Position numbers and translations under genes: made by a program. This document shows, piece by piece, positions 30,019 to 34,510 of a stretch of 64,000 nucleotides of DNA. Source of the stretch: Sedimentibacter hydroxybenzoicus DSM 7310 (GTDB lineage: Bacteria > Bacillota > Clostridia > Tissierellales > Sedimentibacteraceae). The stretch's first letter is position 1. Every line of letters begins with the position of its first letter. The notes beneath the pieces were generated by a model. The model had not been told where the DNA came from. It saw only the letters and a program-made list of their open reading frames with translations, and did no database searches. The DNA is taken from the NCBI RefSeq assembly GCF_013403245.1, contig NZ_JACBNQ010000004.1, positions 1 through 64,000 on the forward strand. The letters are read 5' to 3'.

Positions 30019-30927
30019 GTGACATTACAGCAATTAAGATATGCTATTGCAATAGCTGACTGCAATTCCATGAACAAGGCCGCTCAGTCATTGTTTATTT
30101 CTCAGCCCAGCCTGTCTGCTTCAATCAGAGAGCTGGAAAATGAAATTGGTATCGCCATATATAAAAGAACTAACCGAGGTATTACAATAACACCTGAGGG
30201 TGAGGAGTTTTTAGGTTATGCAAGACAGGTGACAGAGCAGTATGAGCTTATTAATAATAAGTATGTTGAAAAACGTAACATAAAAAAGAAATTCAGCGTT
30301 TCAACACAGCATTATTCATTTGCTGTGAAGGCTTTTGTTGAGACTGTAAAAGAGTTTGGTATGGATGAATATGAGTTTGCGGTTCATGAAACAAAGACGT
30401 ACGAGGTAATAGAAAATGTCAAGAATTTCAAGAGCGAGCTTGGAATCTTGTACCTGAATGATTTTAACGGCAAGGTTATTTCAAAAATACTTGACGAAAA
30501 CAACCTTGAATTTACGAAGCTGTTTGACTGCAAGACATATGTGTATCTATGGGAGGGAAACCCTTTGGCAAAAAAAGAGGTTATATCTATGGAGGATTTG
30601 CAGGAATATACATGTCTTTCGTTTGACCAAGGTGCAAACAATTCGTTTTATTTTGCCGAAGAAGTTCTCAGCGCGAACGTATACAAAAAAATAATTAAGG
30701 CAAATGACAGGGCAACCATGCTTAATCTCATGAGGGGTCTCAACGGATATACGCTGTGTTCGGGAATTATCAGTGAAGAGCTGAATGGTTATGATTATAA
30801 GGCGGTTCCGCTGGCTACCGAAGAATTGATGACAATCGGCTATGTATCAAGAAAGAACTCCACCTTAAGCCATATAGGTAAAAAATATGTTGTAGAATTG
30901 ATGAAATTTAAGGACAGTGCGTTATAG
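30019..30927 (+). CDS. LysR-family transcription regulator
   Basis: 302 residues from GTG 30019 (MTLQQLRYAIAIADCNSMNK), preceded by AGGAGG. N-terminal winged HTH (about 1-60: NKAAQSLFISQPSLSASIRELENEIG, TPEGEEFL) and a C-terminal periplasmic-binding-like effector domain (about 90-295). It sits directly after the 2-hydroxyacid dehydrogenase on the same strand; its targets may be that gene or the methionine-transport operon downstream, neither shown. Confidence 0.9.
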   Translation: MTLQQLRYAIAIADCNSMNKAAQSLFISQPSLSASIRELENEIGIAIYKRTNRGITITPEGEEFLGYARQVTEQYELINNKYVEKRNIKKKFSVSTQHYSFAVKAFVETVKEFGMDEYEFAVHETKTYEVIENVKNFKSELGILYLNDFNGKVISKILDENNLEFTKLFDCKTYVYLWEGNPLAKKEVISMEDLQEYTCLSFDQGANNSFYFAEEVLSANVYKKIIKANDRATMLNLMRGLNGYTLCSGIISEELNGYDYKAVPLATEELMTIGYVSRKNSTLSHIGKKYVVELMKFKDSAL

Positions 30928-30960
30928 GAAAAACCTATAACAGGTTGTTGGTTTTGTGTA

Positions 30961-30990
30961 TTAACACTGTTTAAAAAAAGTATGTATAAT
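30961..30990 (+). promoter_or_regulatory. Promoter of the metNIQ leader
   Basis: TTAACA (30961-30966), 18-bp spacer, TATAAT (30985-30990), predicting a start near 30997 and an untranslated leader of about 280 nt before metN. Confidence 0.65.
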
Positions 30991-31047
30991 ACTAACATGA
31001 GATATACAAGCAAAAAGAATTAAACGAATTCAGAAGGGAGAAATAAA

Positions 31048-31173
31048 ATGCGTACTAATACAAACATAACTACAATGTGTATGATGAATACGATGATGTG
31101 TAATGCCATGTATATGCAGATGACTATGATGCAAAGAAAAATGGCTGTATTTAGTATGCTTTATGTAACCTAG
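31048..31173 (+). CDS. Methionine-rich 41-residue leader peptide of metNIQ
   Basis: ATG 31048 follows AAGGGAG (31034-31040 region) at good spacing. The frame encodes 41 residues, 13 of them Met (12 besides the start): MRTNTNITTMCMMNTMM, then CNAMYMQMTMMQRKM, then AVFSMLYVT and TAG at 31171-31173. Ten of the Met codons fall within 31075-31143. A perfect intrinsic terminator starts 38 nt after the stop and the methionine ABC transporter genes follow. This is the layout of ribosome-mediated attenuation (compare trp, his and leu leaders). Alternative: a small Met/Cys-rich metal-binding peptide. I know of no named family. Too short for usual ORF cut-offs. Confidence 0.72.
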   Translation: MRTNTNITTMCMMNTMMCNAMYMQMTMMQRKMAVFSMLYVT

Positions 31174-31177
31174 TACA

Positions 31178-31209
31178 ATATTCACTGTTTTAAAAATAAG
31201 TGAAGATAT
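31178..31209 (+). promoter_or_regulatory. Hairpin between leader stop codon and terminator
   Basis: ATATTCACT (31178-31186) pairs with AGTGAA-g-ATAT (31199-31209) around a loop GTTTTAAAAATA. It starts five bases after the leader stop codon, so a terminating ribosome would cover its left arm. Possible pause or switch hairpin. Confidence 0.4.
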
Positions 31210-31211
31210 AT

Positions 31212-31240
31212 GCAGGTGCATGAGCACCTGCTATTTTTTT
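31212..31240 (+). terminator. Attenuator terminator upstream of metNIQ
   Basis: GCAGGTGC (31212-31219), loop ATGA, GCACCTGC (31224-31231), then TATTTTTTT. Perfect 8-bp GC-rich stem with a T-run, lying between the leader ORF and metN with no other gene to terminate. Confidence 0.85.
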
Positions 31241-31280
31241 GACCTAATAAGGCTTATAACAGGAAAAGGAGGAAGAGATA

Positions 31281-32327
31281 TTGATATTACTTGAAAATGT
31301 CAGCAAGACCTTTCAGGCGGACGGCAAGGTTGTGGAAGCAGTAAAAAACGTAAATTTGAGTCTGCGTGAAGGTAAAATACATGGAATTATAGGCTTCTCA
31401 GGAGCAGGAAAATCAACACTTGTAAGATGCATAAATCTTCTTGAAAGACCTACTGAAGGAAAGGTAATCCTTGGTGATGTAGAAATAACAGCCCTTGACG
31501 AGAAGGAATTGAGGGAGGAAAGAAAGAAAATCGGAATGATTTTTCAGCAATTTAATTTATTTGCATCAAGGACAGTATTTCAAAATATTGCATATCCCCT
31601 TAAAAACAGCGGGTTGAGCAGGAATGAAGTAGAAAACAAGGTTAATTATCTGCTTGAGCTGGTGGAGCTCAAAGAAAAATCAGGAGCATACCCGTCGCAG
31701 CTCAGCGGCGGTCAGAAGCAGAGGGTTGCAATAGCACGTGCGCTGGCAAATGACCCTAAGATATTGCTCAGTGACGAGGCAACAAGTGCATTGGATCCAC
31801 AGACGACGAAGTCAATATTGAAATTATTGAAACAGTTGAACGAAAAGCTTGGGATTACCGTAATTGTCATAACTCATGAAATGCAGGTGGTAAAGGAAAT
31901 TTGTGACAATGTGGTGGTTATGGAAAACGGAAGGGTTGTTGAGCAGGGAGACGTATTCAGTATATTTGCAAATCCTGTTGAAAAAATAACCAAGGATTTT
32001 GTTGACAGCACATCCAATTTAACCAAGGTGCATGAGCTGATTAATGAAAATGCAGAAATAGTACGGCTTAAAGAAGGCGAATGTATATTGAAGTTCACAT
32101 ATCTTAAGCGGGATGCATCAGAAGCATTGGTATCACATATTTCAAGAAGCTTTGAGCTTGATGTAAATATAATATTCGGAAACATCGAGCTCATAGGAAG
32201 TTACCCCATCGGAGGACTTATATCTGTTGTAAGCGGCAGAGAAAGCAGCATAAATGATGCAATTAATTATTTGAGAGAAAAAAATGTGGGAGTGGAGGTG
32301 ATTTTAGATGCAAGAGTTTCTAAGTAG
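31281..32327 (+). CDS. metN: Methionine ABC transporter ATPase
   Basis: 348 residues. ABC domain with Walker A GFSGAGKST, Q-loop IFQQFNLFA, signature LSGGQKQRVAIARALA, Walker B ILLSDEATSALDP and H-loop VITHEM; a C-terminal NIL/ACT-like domain (about 270-348) typical of MetN, which in known members binds methionine and inhibits transport. TTG start 31281, eight bases after AAAAGGAGG. Overlaps metI by 20 nt. Expression is probably controlled by the Met-rich leader and terminator upstream. Confidence 0.94.
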   Translation: MILLENVSKTFQADGKVVEAVKNVNLSLREGKIHGIIGFSGAGKSTLVRCINLLERPTEGKVILGDVEITALDEKELREERKKIGMIFQQFNLFASRTVFQNIAYPLKNSGLSRNEVENKVNYLLELVELKEKSGAYPSQLSGGQKQRVAIARALANDPKILLSDEATSALDPQTTKSILKLLKQLNEKLGITVIVITHEMQVVKEICDNVVVMENGRVVEQGDVFSIFANPVEKITKDFVDSTSNLTKVHELINENAEIVRLKEGECILKFTYLKRDASEALVSHISRSFELDVNIIFGNIELIGSYPIGGLISVVSGRESSINDAINYLREKNVGVEVILDARVSK

Positions 32328-32988
32328 TGTTTTTCCAAATGTATTTTCAAAATTGCCGGATTTTTTTGAAAGTATTGTAGAGACATTCATAATGTTAGGC
32401 TGGTCAGGTTCAATTTCATTTGTTATAGGGATTATTTTAGGAATAATACTTACGGTTACAAAAAAGGGAGGAATTATTCAGAATATAGCAGTTTTTCAAG
32501 TGCTTGACAAGATTATAAATTTTTTCAGATCAATACCGTTCATCATATTGCTGGCAGGTGTAATGCCACTTACCAGACTAATTTCAGGAACTGCAATAGG
32601 TGTTGAGGGTGCTATAGTGCCCCTTGTGTTTGGGACAGTGCCGTTCTTTGCAAGGCAGATAGAGACGGCGCTTGCAGAAATGAACCCGGGACTTATAGAG
32701 GCGGCACAGTCAATGGGCTCAGGACCGCTGGAAATTATATTTCGCGTGTACCTGAGAGAGTGCATTCCGGGTATTGTAAGAGGAACAACCATTACCGCAA
32801 TCAGTCTCATTGGGCTTACGGCAATGGCAGGTGCAGTTGGAGCAGGAGGGCTTGGAGATTTTGCCATACGTTTCGGCTACCAAAGAAATCAAATTGATGT
32901 CACCTATGCTTCGGTTATAGTGTTGGTTGCTTTAGTAAGCATAATACAGATGATTGGAAGCGCTATAGTAAGGAAGAACAGCCATTGA
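32308..32988 (+). CDS. metI: Methionine ABC transporter permease
   Basis: 226-residue inner-membrane permease with five or so hydrophobic segments and the EAA-type coupling loop EAAQSMGSGPLEIIFRVYL. FFRSIPFIILLAGVMPLTR is characteristic of MetI. ATG 32308 follows GTGGAGGTGAT inside the metN 3' end. metQ follows after 33 bp. Confidence 0.94.
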   Translation: MQEFLSSVFPNVFSKLPDFFESIVETFIMLGWSGSISFVIGIILGIILTVTKKGGIIQNIAVFQVLDKIINFFRSIPFIILLAGVMPLTRLISGTAIGVEGAIVPLVFGTVPFFARQIETALAEMNPGLIEAAQSMGSGPLEIIFRVYLRECIPGIVRGTTITAISLIGLTAMAGAVGAGGLGDFAIRFGYQRNQIDVTYASVIVLVALVSIIQMIGSAIVRKNSH

Positions 32989-33021
32989 TACAAAAATTAT
33001 TAAAATTAAAGGAGAACAATT

Positions 33022-33849
33022 ATGAAAGCAAAGAAAATAATATCAATTTTAACAGCAATAGCTTTATTAGCATCATTTACAGCATGCTCAAAACCGAGTG
33101 ATGCCGAGAAAAAAGATACGACAACCGTAAAGGTGGGAGTTGTAGGAGAATCCAATGAAATGTGGGAGCCCGTAATTGAGAAACTGGCTAAGGAAGGAAT
33201 AGATATTAAGTTGGTGAGCTTTACAGATTATGGAACACCAAATAAGGCGTTAAACAATGGAGATACTGATTTGAATGCGTTCCAGCACTATGCATATCTT
33301 AATGGCGAAATTAAGAATAATGGATATGAAATTCAGTCAATAGGGGATACATTTATTTCGGCTATGAACATCTATTCTAACAAGGTTAAAAGTGTTGATG
33401 ATATAGGTGAAAAAGCAAAAATTGCAGTGCCTAATGACGCAACCAATGAAGGAAGAGCACTTAAAATTGTTGAAGCTGCAGGTCTTATTGAACTGAACAA
33501 GGAAGCGGGAGATGCACCTGAGTTATCTGATATAGTTTCAAACCCACTGAATCTTGAATTTGTTGAGGTTGATGCAGCAAATGTGTATGCTGTACTTCCG
33601 GATGTTACTGCGGCTGTTATAAATTGCAACTACGCATTGGATAATGGTTTAAATCCGGGAGAGGATTCAATATTCCAGGATGATGTGAGCTATTATGCGG
33701 GAAAAAGTTATGTAAATCTTATAGCTGCAAGAATAAAGGATGCCGATAATGAAATTTTCAAAAAAATCGTAGCAGAATATCAGTCTGAGGCTGTGGAAGG
33801 AATATACAATACAACTTTCAAAGGCGCATATAAACCGGCTTGGAAATAA
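33022..33849 (+). CDS. metQ: Methionine-binding lipoprotein
   Basis: 275-residue NlpA/MetQ-family lipoprotein. Signal peptide MKAKKIISILTAIALLASF with lipobox TAC (Cys at about 23). The mature part shows the family features VKVGVVGESNEMW, LNAFQHYAYLNGEI, IAVPNDATNEGRALKI, and VNLIAARIKDADNEIFKKIV. Binds methionine (some members D-Met or Met-containing peptides) and delivers it to MetNI. AAAGGAG precedes the ATG. Confidence 0.94.
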   Translation: MKAKKIISILTAIALLASFTACSKPSDAEKKDTTTVKVGVVGESNEMWEPVIEKLAKEGIDIKLVSFTDYGTPNKALNNGDTDLNAFQHYAYLNGEIKNNGYEIQSIGDTFISAMNIYSNKVKSVDDIGEKAKIAVPNDATNEGRALKIVEAAGLIELNKEAGDAPELSDIVSNPLNLEFVEVDAANVYAVLPDVTAAVINCNYALDNGLNPGEDSIFQDDVSYYAGKSYVNLIAARIKDADNEIFKKIVAEYQSEAVEGIYNTTFKGAYKPAWK

Positions 33850-33956
33850 GGTGAGGGTTACTGCAGAATTCAGAGCATAACAAATAAAAATCCGGGAAAT
33901 ATATACCTTAATTATGTGCGCGGAGGAATGAGGATAGAATCACATTCATAAAAGAC

Positions 33957-33984
33957 TTGAAATTATAATTTTTTAAGATATAAT
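33957..33984 (+). promoter_or_regulatory. Promoter of greA
   Basis: TTGAAA (33957-33962), 16-bp spacer, TATAAT (33979-33984). The region 33850-33956 shows nothing else I can name. Confidence 0.65.
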
Positions 33985-34036
33985 ATAATGACGGGTAATA
34001 ATGTTATTGAATAAGCACATGATAGTGGGTGAAAAG

Positions 34037-34510
34037 ATGGAAGCTAAAGAAATTCTGGTAACCGAAGCAGGTTATAAAGAACTTGTCGACGAATTAGAAT
34101 ATAGGAAAACTAAACTAAGAAAAGAAATTTCCGAAAGAATTAAAGGGGCGCTACAAGAAGGCGATTTAAGCGAAAATGCTGAGTATCACGAATCCAAGGA
34201 AGAGCAAAATAAAAACGAATCAAGAATAATTGTTCTTGAACATACTTTAAAATATACGAAAATAGTTAAGCATAATGAAAAGAAAAAAGACACAGTTCAA
34301 ATAGGCAGTCGGGTGAAAATCGAGGATTTGGAATTTGATGAAATTCTTGAACTTTCTATTGTTGGCGCTACGGAAGCGGATCCTGTTACGGGGAAAATTT
34401 CAAATGTGTCACCGCTTGGTTCAGCGCTTTTAGGAAAGAAAAAAGGTGTTACTGTAAGCGTCGATTCACCGGGTGGTGTCGTTAAATACGAAATTCTTGA
34501 AGTCAATTAA
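34037..34510 (+). CDS. greA: Transcription elongation factor GreA
   Basis: GreA rescues backtracked RNA polymerase by stimulating transcript cleavage. 157 residues from ATG 34037 (MEAKEILVTEAGYKEL), the normal length; in-frame ATGs at 34001 and 34019 would add up to 12 residues and lack a good site, while GTGGGTG precedes 34037. The N-terminal coiled coil carries the tip acidic residues in EGDLSENAEYHESKEEQ; the C-terminal FKBP-like domain has VTGKISNVSPLGSALLGKK. Followed by a strong terminator, so monocistronic. Confidence 0.94.
   Translation: MEAKEILVTEAGYKELVDELEYRKTKLRKEISERIKGALQEGDLSENAEYHESKEEQNKNESRIIVLEHTLKYTKIVKHNEKKKDTVQIGSRVKIEDLEFDEILELSIVGATEADPVTGKISNVSPLGSALLGKKKGVTVSVDSPGGVVKYEILEVN

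Follow-up and report, generated by a model that had tools for sequence, protein, structure and literature searches.

How is the methionine transporter operon metNIQ of Sedimentibacter hydroxybenzoicus DSM 7310 controlled? For methionine, SAM riboswitches and T-boxes are the textbook control elements in Bacillota. The initial annotation of the 64,000-nt stretch analysed here (positions 1 to 64,000 of contig NZ_JACBNQ010000004.1, forward strand; hereafter the window) noted neither in front of metN and suggested attenuation by a Met-rich leader peptide. We propose, with a probability of about 0.85, that metNIQ is governed by a ribosome-mediated transcription attenuator sensing the charging of Met-tRNA. 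The earlier attenuation reading gained support on three points: an antiterminator was found, the leader recurs in other genomes and its Met codons are conserved.

All elements described before, i.e., a promoter, a 41-codon ORF with 13 Met codons, a terminator and metNIQ in this order, were recovered (Table 1). Of 19 promoter-like sites between 30500 and 34500 (13.3 expected by chance), this one was the joint best. The leader peptide, MRTNTNITTMCMMNTMMCNAMYMQMTMMQRKMAVFSMLYVT, contains 13 Met including the start and two Cys. The terminator hairpin (31212-31231) has 8 pairs, 6 of them G-C, and is followed by the tail TATTTTTTTG; it is one of three terminator-like sites in 30500-34500, against 2.1 expected. 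MetN, MetI and MetQ were the best NCBIfam matches of the downstream products, all under the curated cut-offs (ABC_MetN, 392.5 bits, cut-off 499.7; MetI, 198.9, cut-off 212; MetQ, 213.6, cut-off 374). Pfam cut-offs were exceeded by ABC_tran, NIL, BPD_transp_1 and Lipoprotein_9, with scores of 66.1 for PF09383 in the metN product (cut-off 24) and 253 for PF03180 in the metQ product (cut-off 27). No Pfam or NCBIfam model matched the leader peptide of the window; therefore, such leaders are likely overlooked by automatic annotation.

Table 1. Features of the metNIQ leader locus in window coordinates
Feature	Position	Strand	Description	Basis
Palindrome TTATAG-N7-CTATAA	30922..30940	.	overlaps end of LysR gene	
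Sigma-70-type promoter-like site TTAACA-18-TATAAT	30961..30990	+		11/12 consensus match only
Shine-Dalgarno AAGGGAG	31034..31040	+	leader ORF	read directly from sequence
Leader ORF	31048..31173	+	41 codons; proposed attenuator sensor	ORF call; orthologues L083-L086; Met conservation
Antiterminator 5' strand	31162..31175	+	codons 39-41, stop codon, two bases	computed folds
A+T-rich hairpin	31181..31204	+	inside antiterminator loop	computed fold; poorly conserved in A1
Antiterminator 3' strand	31211..31222	+	terminator left arm and loop start	computed fold
Intrinsic terminator with T tract	31212..31240	+	-14.5 kcal/mol	terminator search; 2 compensatory pairs, 8 relatives
metN	31281..32327	+	methionine ABC transporter ATPase	best NCBIfam match ABC_MetN; PF09383 NIL
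metI	32308..32988	+	permease	best NCBIfam match MetI; PF00528
metQ	33022..33849	+	substrate-binding lipoprotein	best NCBIfam match MetQ; PF03180

The initial annotation had found no clean antiterminator by eye. This was overturned when the RNA was folded up to, and without, the right arm of the terminator; the fold contained a 12-bp antiterminator against the left arm (31162-31175/31211-31222), formed in three blocks with UAUGUA, CCU and GUA on the 5' side. The hairpin previously seen five bases past the stop codon, at 31178-31209 by eye, reappeared in this fold slightly shorter and nested in the antiterminator loop. A protector or pause hairpin (1:2), as in trp, is not needed in every attenuator of the trp/his/leu type.

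The folds were then computed for different positions of the ribosome. Assuming a footprint of approximately 12 nt beyond the A-site codon, stalls at Met10-Met32 kept the antiterminator free with all 12 bp formed; the ribosome-free RNA in these states had energies of -26.5 to -16.1 kcal/mol, compared with -14.5 for the terminator hairpin. For the Met32 stall, the value was -14.0 when the RNA was cut two bases earlier, at 31222. Only 3 cross pairs persisted with a stall at Met37, and none once the ribosome sat on the stop codon and covered the antiterminator. With the right arm included, each of the four ribosome states tested had the terminator as its minimum-energy fold; therefore, the switch would need co-transcriptional kinetics, with the antiterminator forming first. 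In known attenuators, the antiterminator acts in this manner.

We propose that RNA polymerase would transcribe the leader with a ribosome trailing on the Met-rich ORF. If Met-tRNA is ample, the ribosome would reach the stop codon and cover 31162-31175, the terminator hairpin would form and transcription would stop. If Met-tRNA is scarce, the ribosome would stall at one of Met10-Met32, no closer than 18 nt to the start of that segment, which would then be free to pair with the left arm of the terminator as the arm emerges, and the polymerase would read into metNIQ. In the naked RNA of the window, codons 2-5 pair with codons 33-37 in the minimum-energy fold and the antiterminator is still formed; however, 5.9 pairs are expected with the left arm, as against 8.8 between 31153-31170 and upstream RNA. 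Naked leader RNA formed the antiterminator (at least 4 expected pairs) in 20 of 34 leaders and did not in 14.

We compared the interaction between the left arm and the upstream segment with dinucleotide shuffles. By whole-segment folding, the mean z was -1.24 over 34 leaders, with p<=0.05 in 15; in this and the other comparative counts, related genomes are not independent. The values were -1.39 and 12/25 for 25 hand-picked representatives, and RNAduplex gave a mean z of -1.04, with 7/34 below 0.05. For the window alone, the interaction was not beyond chance by whole-segment folding (z -1.07, p 0.155) or by RNAduplex (p 0.145), the best duplex site of which fell in the Met run; whole-segment folding served better for left-arm pairing in the window. 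Individual leaders were often without a significant left-arm interaction, z exceeding 0.5 in L050, L085, L132, L133 and L137, and L084 and L085 had only 6 to 9 cross pairs. Two small control sets of real terminators gave mean z values of -0.44 (n=3) and 0.73 (n=5).

Covariance-based folding, which had been suggested for this leader, supported the terminator. In alignment A1 (8 sequences), 98.4% of the terminator cells were paired and 2 pairs showed compensatory change; the covariation score and the paired cells were reached by 0 of 500 shuffles, whereas 183 of 500 had as many pairs with both partners changed. None of the 11 antiterminator pairs was changed on both sides, and the 5' strand hardly varies; therefore, covariation neither supports nor opposes the antiterminator. 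The antiterminator helix had 89.4% of its cells paired versus 18-47% when slid, a fit that arises by construction when the sequence is conserved. The window and L083 have one bulge shifted relative to the A1 antiterminator structure.

Short Met-rich ORFs were sought upstream of metN in related genomes, as the initial annotation had advised. The regions were taken from a scan of which the best 80 of 584 relatives were kept, and from further genome searches with differing cut-offs, which matched 8/61, 8/391, 31/396, 18/350 and 41/204 genomes, loci being built from only part of the 31/396 and 41/204 matches. This yielded 170 loci with at least 300 nt upstream, 160 of them distinct. A leader was called when an ORF of 12-60 aa with a Shine-Dalgarno-like site contained three or more internal Met and five or more Met plus Cys, the latter making up at least 16% of residues. 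Such an ORF was present in 39 of the 160 distinct regions versus 18 of 3215 ordinary windows (450 nt, same loci); together with a terminator called by the same rule, the counts were 34/160 and 3/3215. The filter passed 0/160 reverse complements and a mean of 0.5 (maximum 2) of 160 dinucleotide shuffles over 20 rounds. Two of the 39, L020 and L050, probably represent false ORFs. Within the window genus, the leader was found in 5 of 8 genomes with a close metN; 53 of 61 genomes had no metN at the cut-off used.

Two patterns that would speak against the attenuation reading were also looked for. Five of the 39 leaders had no called terminator; by eye, a hairpin followed by a T-rich tail is present in L066, L095 and L113, where the caller missed it or placed it outside its range, the hairpin of L107 lacks a T tract, and the fifth is L020. 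The ORF was absent from L087-L089, three same-genus genomes with a 57%-identical metN, where an open coding frame, by eye, extends up to metN. L021 and L071 look like leaders and fall outside the filter, and L060 lies on an Alistipes-titled contig that may be misbinned. At L048 (1377-1508), a Met/Cys-rich leader and terminator head an operon in which the first gene encodes a 449-aa protein and is followed by metN, metI and metQ; this leader, one of the 3 terminator-bearing control hits, looks like a real one. Compared with the window, L083-L085 have a longer spacer between terminator and metN, in which repeated motifs resembling GCGANAGNGAGC were seen by eye.

A DNA search of 25 same-genus genomes recovered the window and the genome of L083 (E 1e-62), the other short matches having E 0.003 or worse and the best further match in the window's own genome E 0.06. 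This search also missed the known leaders of L084-L086; therefore, it excludes only close copies. A peptide search of 27 family genomes likewise returned the window and the genome of L083 only, plus three matches at E 0.4-0.7. The leader peptide of one relative matched 7 of 300 genomes of the L034 family, 5 matches being metN leaders and 2 weak. The MxMxM pattern was tried as a search handle and was too common to be useful.

Conservation of the Met codons was assessed by counting residue identity over ordered pairs with the start codon left out. In this test, which the initial annotation had asked for, Met was better kept than other residues in four leader groups: 142/180 versus 250/536 in the window genus, 36/36 versus 56/142 in L003/L149/L151, 350/378 versus 490/858 in L137/L139-L144, and 10/11 versus 38/51 in L002/L103. 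Cys identity was 20/24 in the L003 group, 8/8 in L002/L103, 2/16 in the window genus and 8/36 in L137/L139-L144. Met12, 21, 23, 25, 27 and 32 are Met in 5/5 Sedimentibacter leaders; Met37, a position at which a stalled ribosome would cover the antiterminator, is kept in L083, whereas L084-L086 have Ala or Val there.

On the pattern of the sequences, what looks like a C-terminal peptide motif, YVT-stop, reflects an RNA element. TTATG-NN-ACCT occurs in 8 of the 39 leader regions, namely the five from Sedimentibacter and those of the L003 group, versus 1 of 121 leaderless regions, and in L003 it is located after the stop codon, outside the ORF. GTGCGC occurs in 11/39 leaders, 15-47 nt upstream of where the stop codon ends and in all three reading frames, and pairs with the terminator left arms in L086, L002 and L103; we read these as one element. 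Ten of the 39 leaders, including that of the window, begin MRT, across several groups, which may reflect the initiation region or RNA pairing. L137 and L139-L144, and also L107, L132 and L133, share GYGMMM..MDMAMMPMPT, or MDMAM then Pro/Thr, with non-Met residues conserved; this motif could stem from an effect of the nascent chain or from RNA pairing between CCCAC and GTGGG.

The view that the window has neither an S-box nor a T-box was upheld by Rfam, as RF00162 and RF00230 gave no match at the gathering threshold, nor at E<=5 in 30930-31290. No Rfam family reached its gathering score in the window or in 36 further leader loci; L20_leader, the best match in 30930-31290, scored 25.7 bits versus 58.7 required and was rejected as chance around the terminator. 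In related genomes, the S-box and T-box occupy the same place before metN. Either one was found in 0 of 37 leader loci (the 39 without L020 and L050) versus, just upstream of metN and on its strand, 20 of 44 leaderless loci drawn from the 121, with a Fisher p of 5e-7 that ignores the relatedness of the genomes. Because L159 duplicates L158, 19 of 43 distinct leaderless loci carry one; 24 of the 44 have neither. Given this distribution, the leader appears to fill the same slot before metN as the S-box and T-box. At ten loci (L097, L098, L160-L165, L168 and L169), SAM riboswitches lie on both strands upstream of metN, and one faces metN.

A LysR-type regulator gene (30019-30927; Pfam HTH_1 and LysR_substrate) lies directly upstream of the leader region. 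The palindrome overlapping its end, which we take to resemble the streptococcal MET-box, occurs at 8 of 39 leader loci versus 1 of 121 leaderless loci; it is probably the operator of the adjacent regulator, and its distribution suggests a second, DNA-level control. Could metNIQ be controlled solely by this regulator, the leader being an ordinary terminator next to a chance Met-rich ORF? The regulator gene and conserved palindrome just upstream would fit, as would the absence of a significant antiterminator for the window alone. However, the excess of leader ORFs (39/160 versus 18/3215), the conservation of their Met codons and the placement of the leader at the operon head in L048, although another gene precedes metN there, make this account scarcely credible. 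A functional Met/Cys-rich small protein, e.g., a copper-binding one, with a terminator that ends only its own short transcript, would explain the Met/Cys-rich sequence with its MxMxM spacing and the non-Met residues kept in one group (GYGMMM..MDMAMMPMPT). This is quite improbable, since the peptide drifts outside Met (56/142 and 250/536 identical), Cys is kept in 2/16 in the window genus, and the C-terminal block behaves as an RNA element, lying past the stop in L003 and, as GTGCGC, in three frames. In addition, 5 of the 7 matches of one leader peptide in 300 genomes were at metN, the other searches covering metN upstream regions only.

The signal might also be a small molecule (free methionine, SAM or a drug) and not uncharged tRNA; the nascent peptide would then arrest the ribosome and act through the same antiterminator. 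Macrolide leaders are peptides that work by nascent-chain arrest. TnaC is another (PMC8429421), and the non-Met residues conserved in L137/L139-L144 and the MRT start of 10/39 leaders are compatible with arrest. However, apart from their Met/Cys density and, in some cases, an MR/MRT start, the Sedimentibacter, L003 and L002 leaders have little in common, and the antiterminator stays free for stalls at many different Met codons; arrest is therefore improbable, and we retain an attenuator that senses Met-tRNA charging as the preferred reading.

The cysteine leader ORFs of mycobacteria were reportedly described by Canestrari in 2020. Like the present leader, they are short ORFs with sulfur-amino-acid codons upstream of sulfur genes; they differ in using Cys codons and, in the part of the actinobacterial survey considered here, no conserved terminator hairpin is reported for them (PMC1262725). 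The same part of that survey reports no methionine leader-peptide attenuator in Actinobacteria (PMC1262725). In Bacillota, leader-peptide attenuation is known for His (PMC2965389) and for Leu/Ile (PMC5794164). The His leaders of bacilli (hisZ/hisS*) likewise take the place of a T-box in Firmicutes, whereas they read histidine and precede hisZ and a hisS paralogue (PMC2965389). The ilv-leu leader of Staphylococcus aureus combines an amino-acid-rich peptide, a terminator and an alternative fold in a member of Bacillota, as here, and mutants support it; however, it concerns leucine/isoleucine and a biosynthesis operon, and its proposed antiterminator pairs with the poly-U tail rather than with the left arm of the terminator, according to the sections consulted (PMC5794164).

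One precedent for a Met leader and metNIQ attenuator was found among the open-licence PMC papers considered, namely metL of Streptomyces lividans. In strain TK24, the leader peptide MSTTSDRTPATEATTTPGARCMCRRMCAF precedes metNIQ and was proposed as an attenuator (PMC8079986); it shares Met and Cys codons and the same downstream operon with our leader. It differs in being actinobacterial, on a leaderless transcript, with two internal Met and three Cys, and the sections consulted report hairpins and no typical Rho-independent terminator (PMC8079986). In contrast, the Sedimentibacter leader has a Shine-Dalgarno sequence, 13 Met codons, a strong terminator and an explicit antiterminator, and belongs to Clostridia. 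The kind of attenuator is thus already known, and the Met codons, the occurrence in Clostridia and the complete switch are apparently new here. No Met leader peptide or metNIQ attenuator in Bacillota was found among the open-licence PMC papers considered, and an earlier description is possible.

The leaders might together constitute an undescribed family of sulfur-amino-acid attenuators across Clostridia that replaces the S-box and T-box before metNIQ and reads both Met-tRNA and Cys-tRNA, a generalization that we offer tentatively and lean against. Beyond Clostridia, a Met/Cys leader was seen in one record titled Brachyspira, and two sub-threshold look-alikes are titled Synergistales and Succinivibrio.

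The proposed attenuator would place a peptide-coding element with a base-paired switch in the riboswitch slot of several clostridial groups. Because translation itself starts with methionine, the question arises of how attenuation operates if the amino acid being sensed is limiting for initiation as well. In trp-type leaders, untranslated RNA terminates. The naked metN leader often forms the antiterminator; therefore, failure of initiation for want of formyl-Met-tRNA would also give read-through. If this is true, starvation for initiator and elongator tRNA would act in the same direction, unlike in trp-type leaders.
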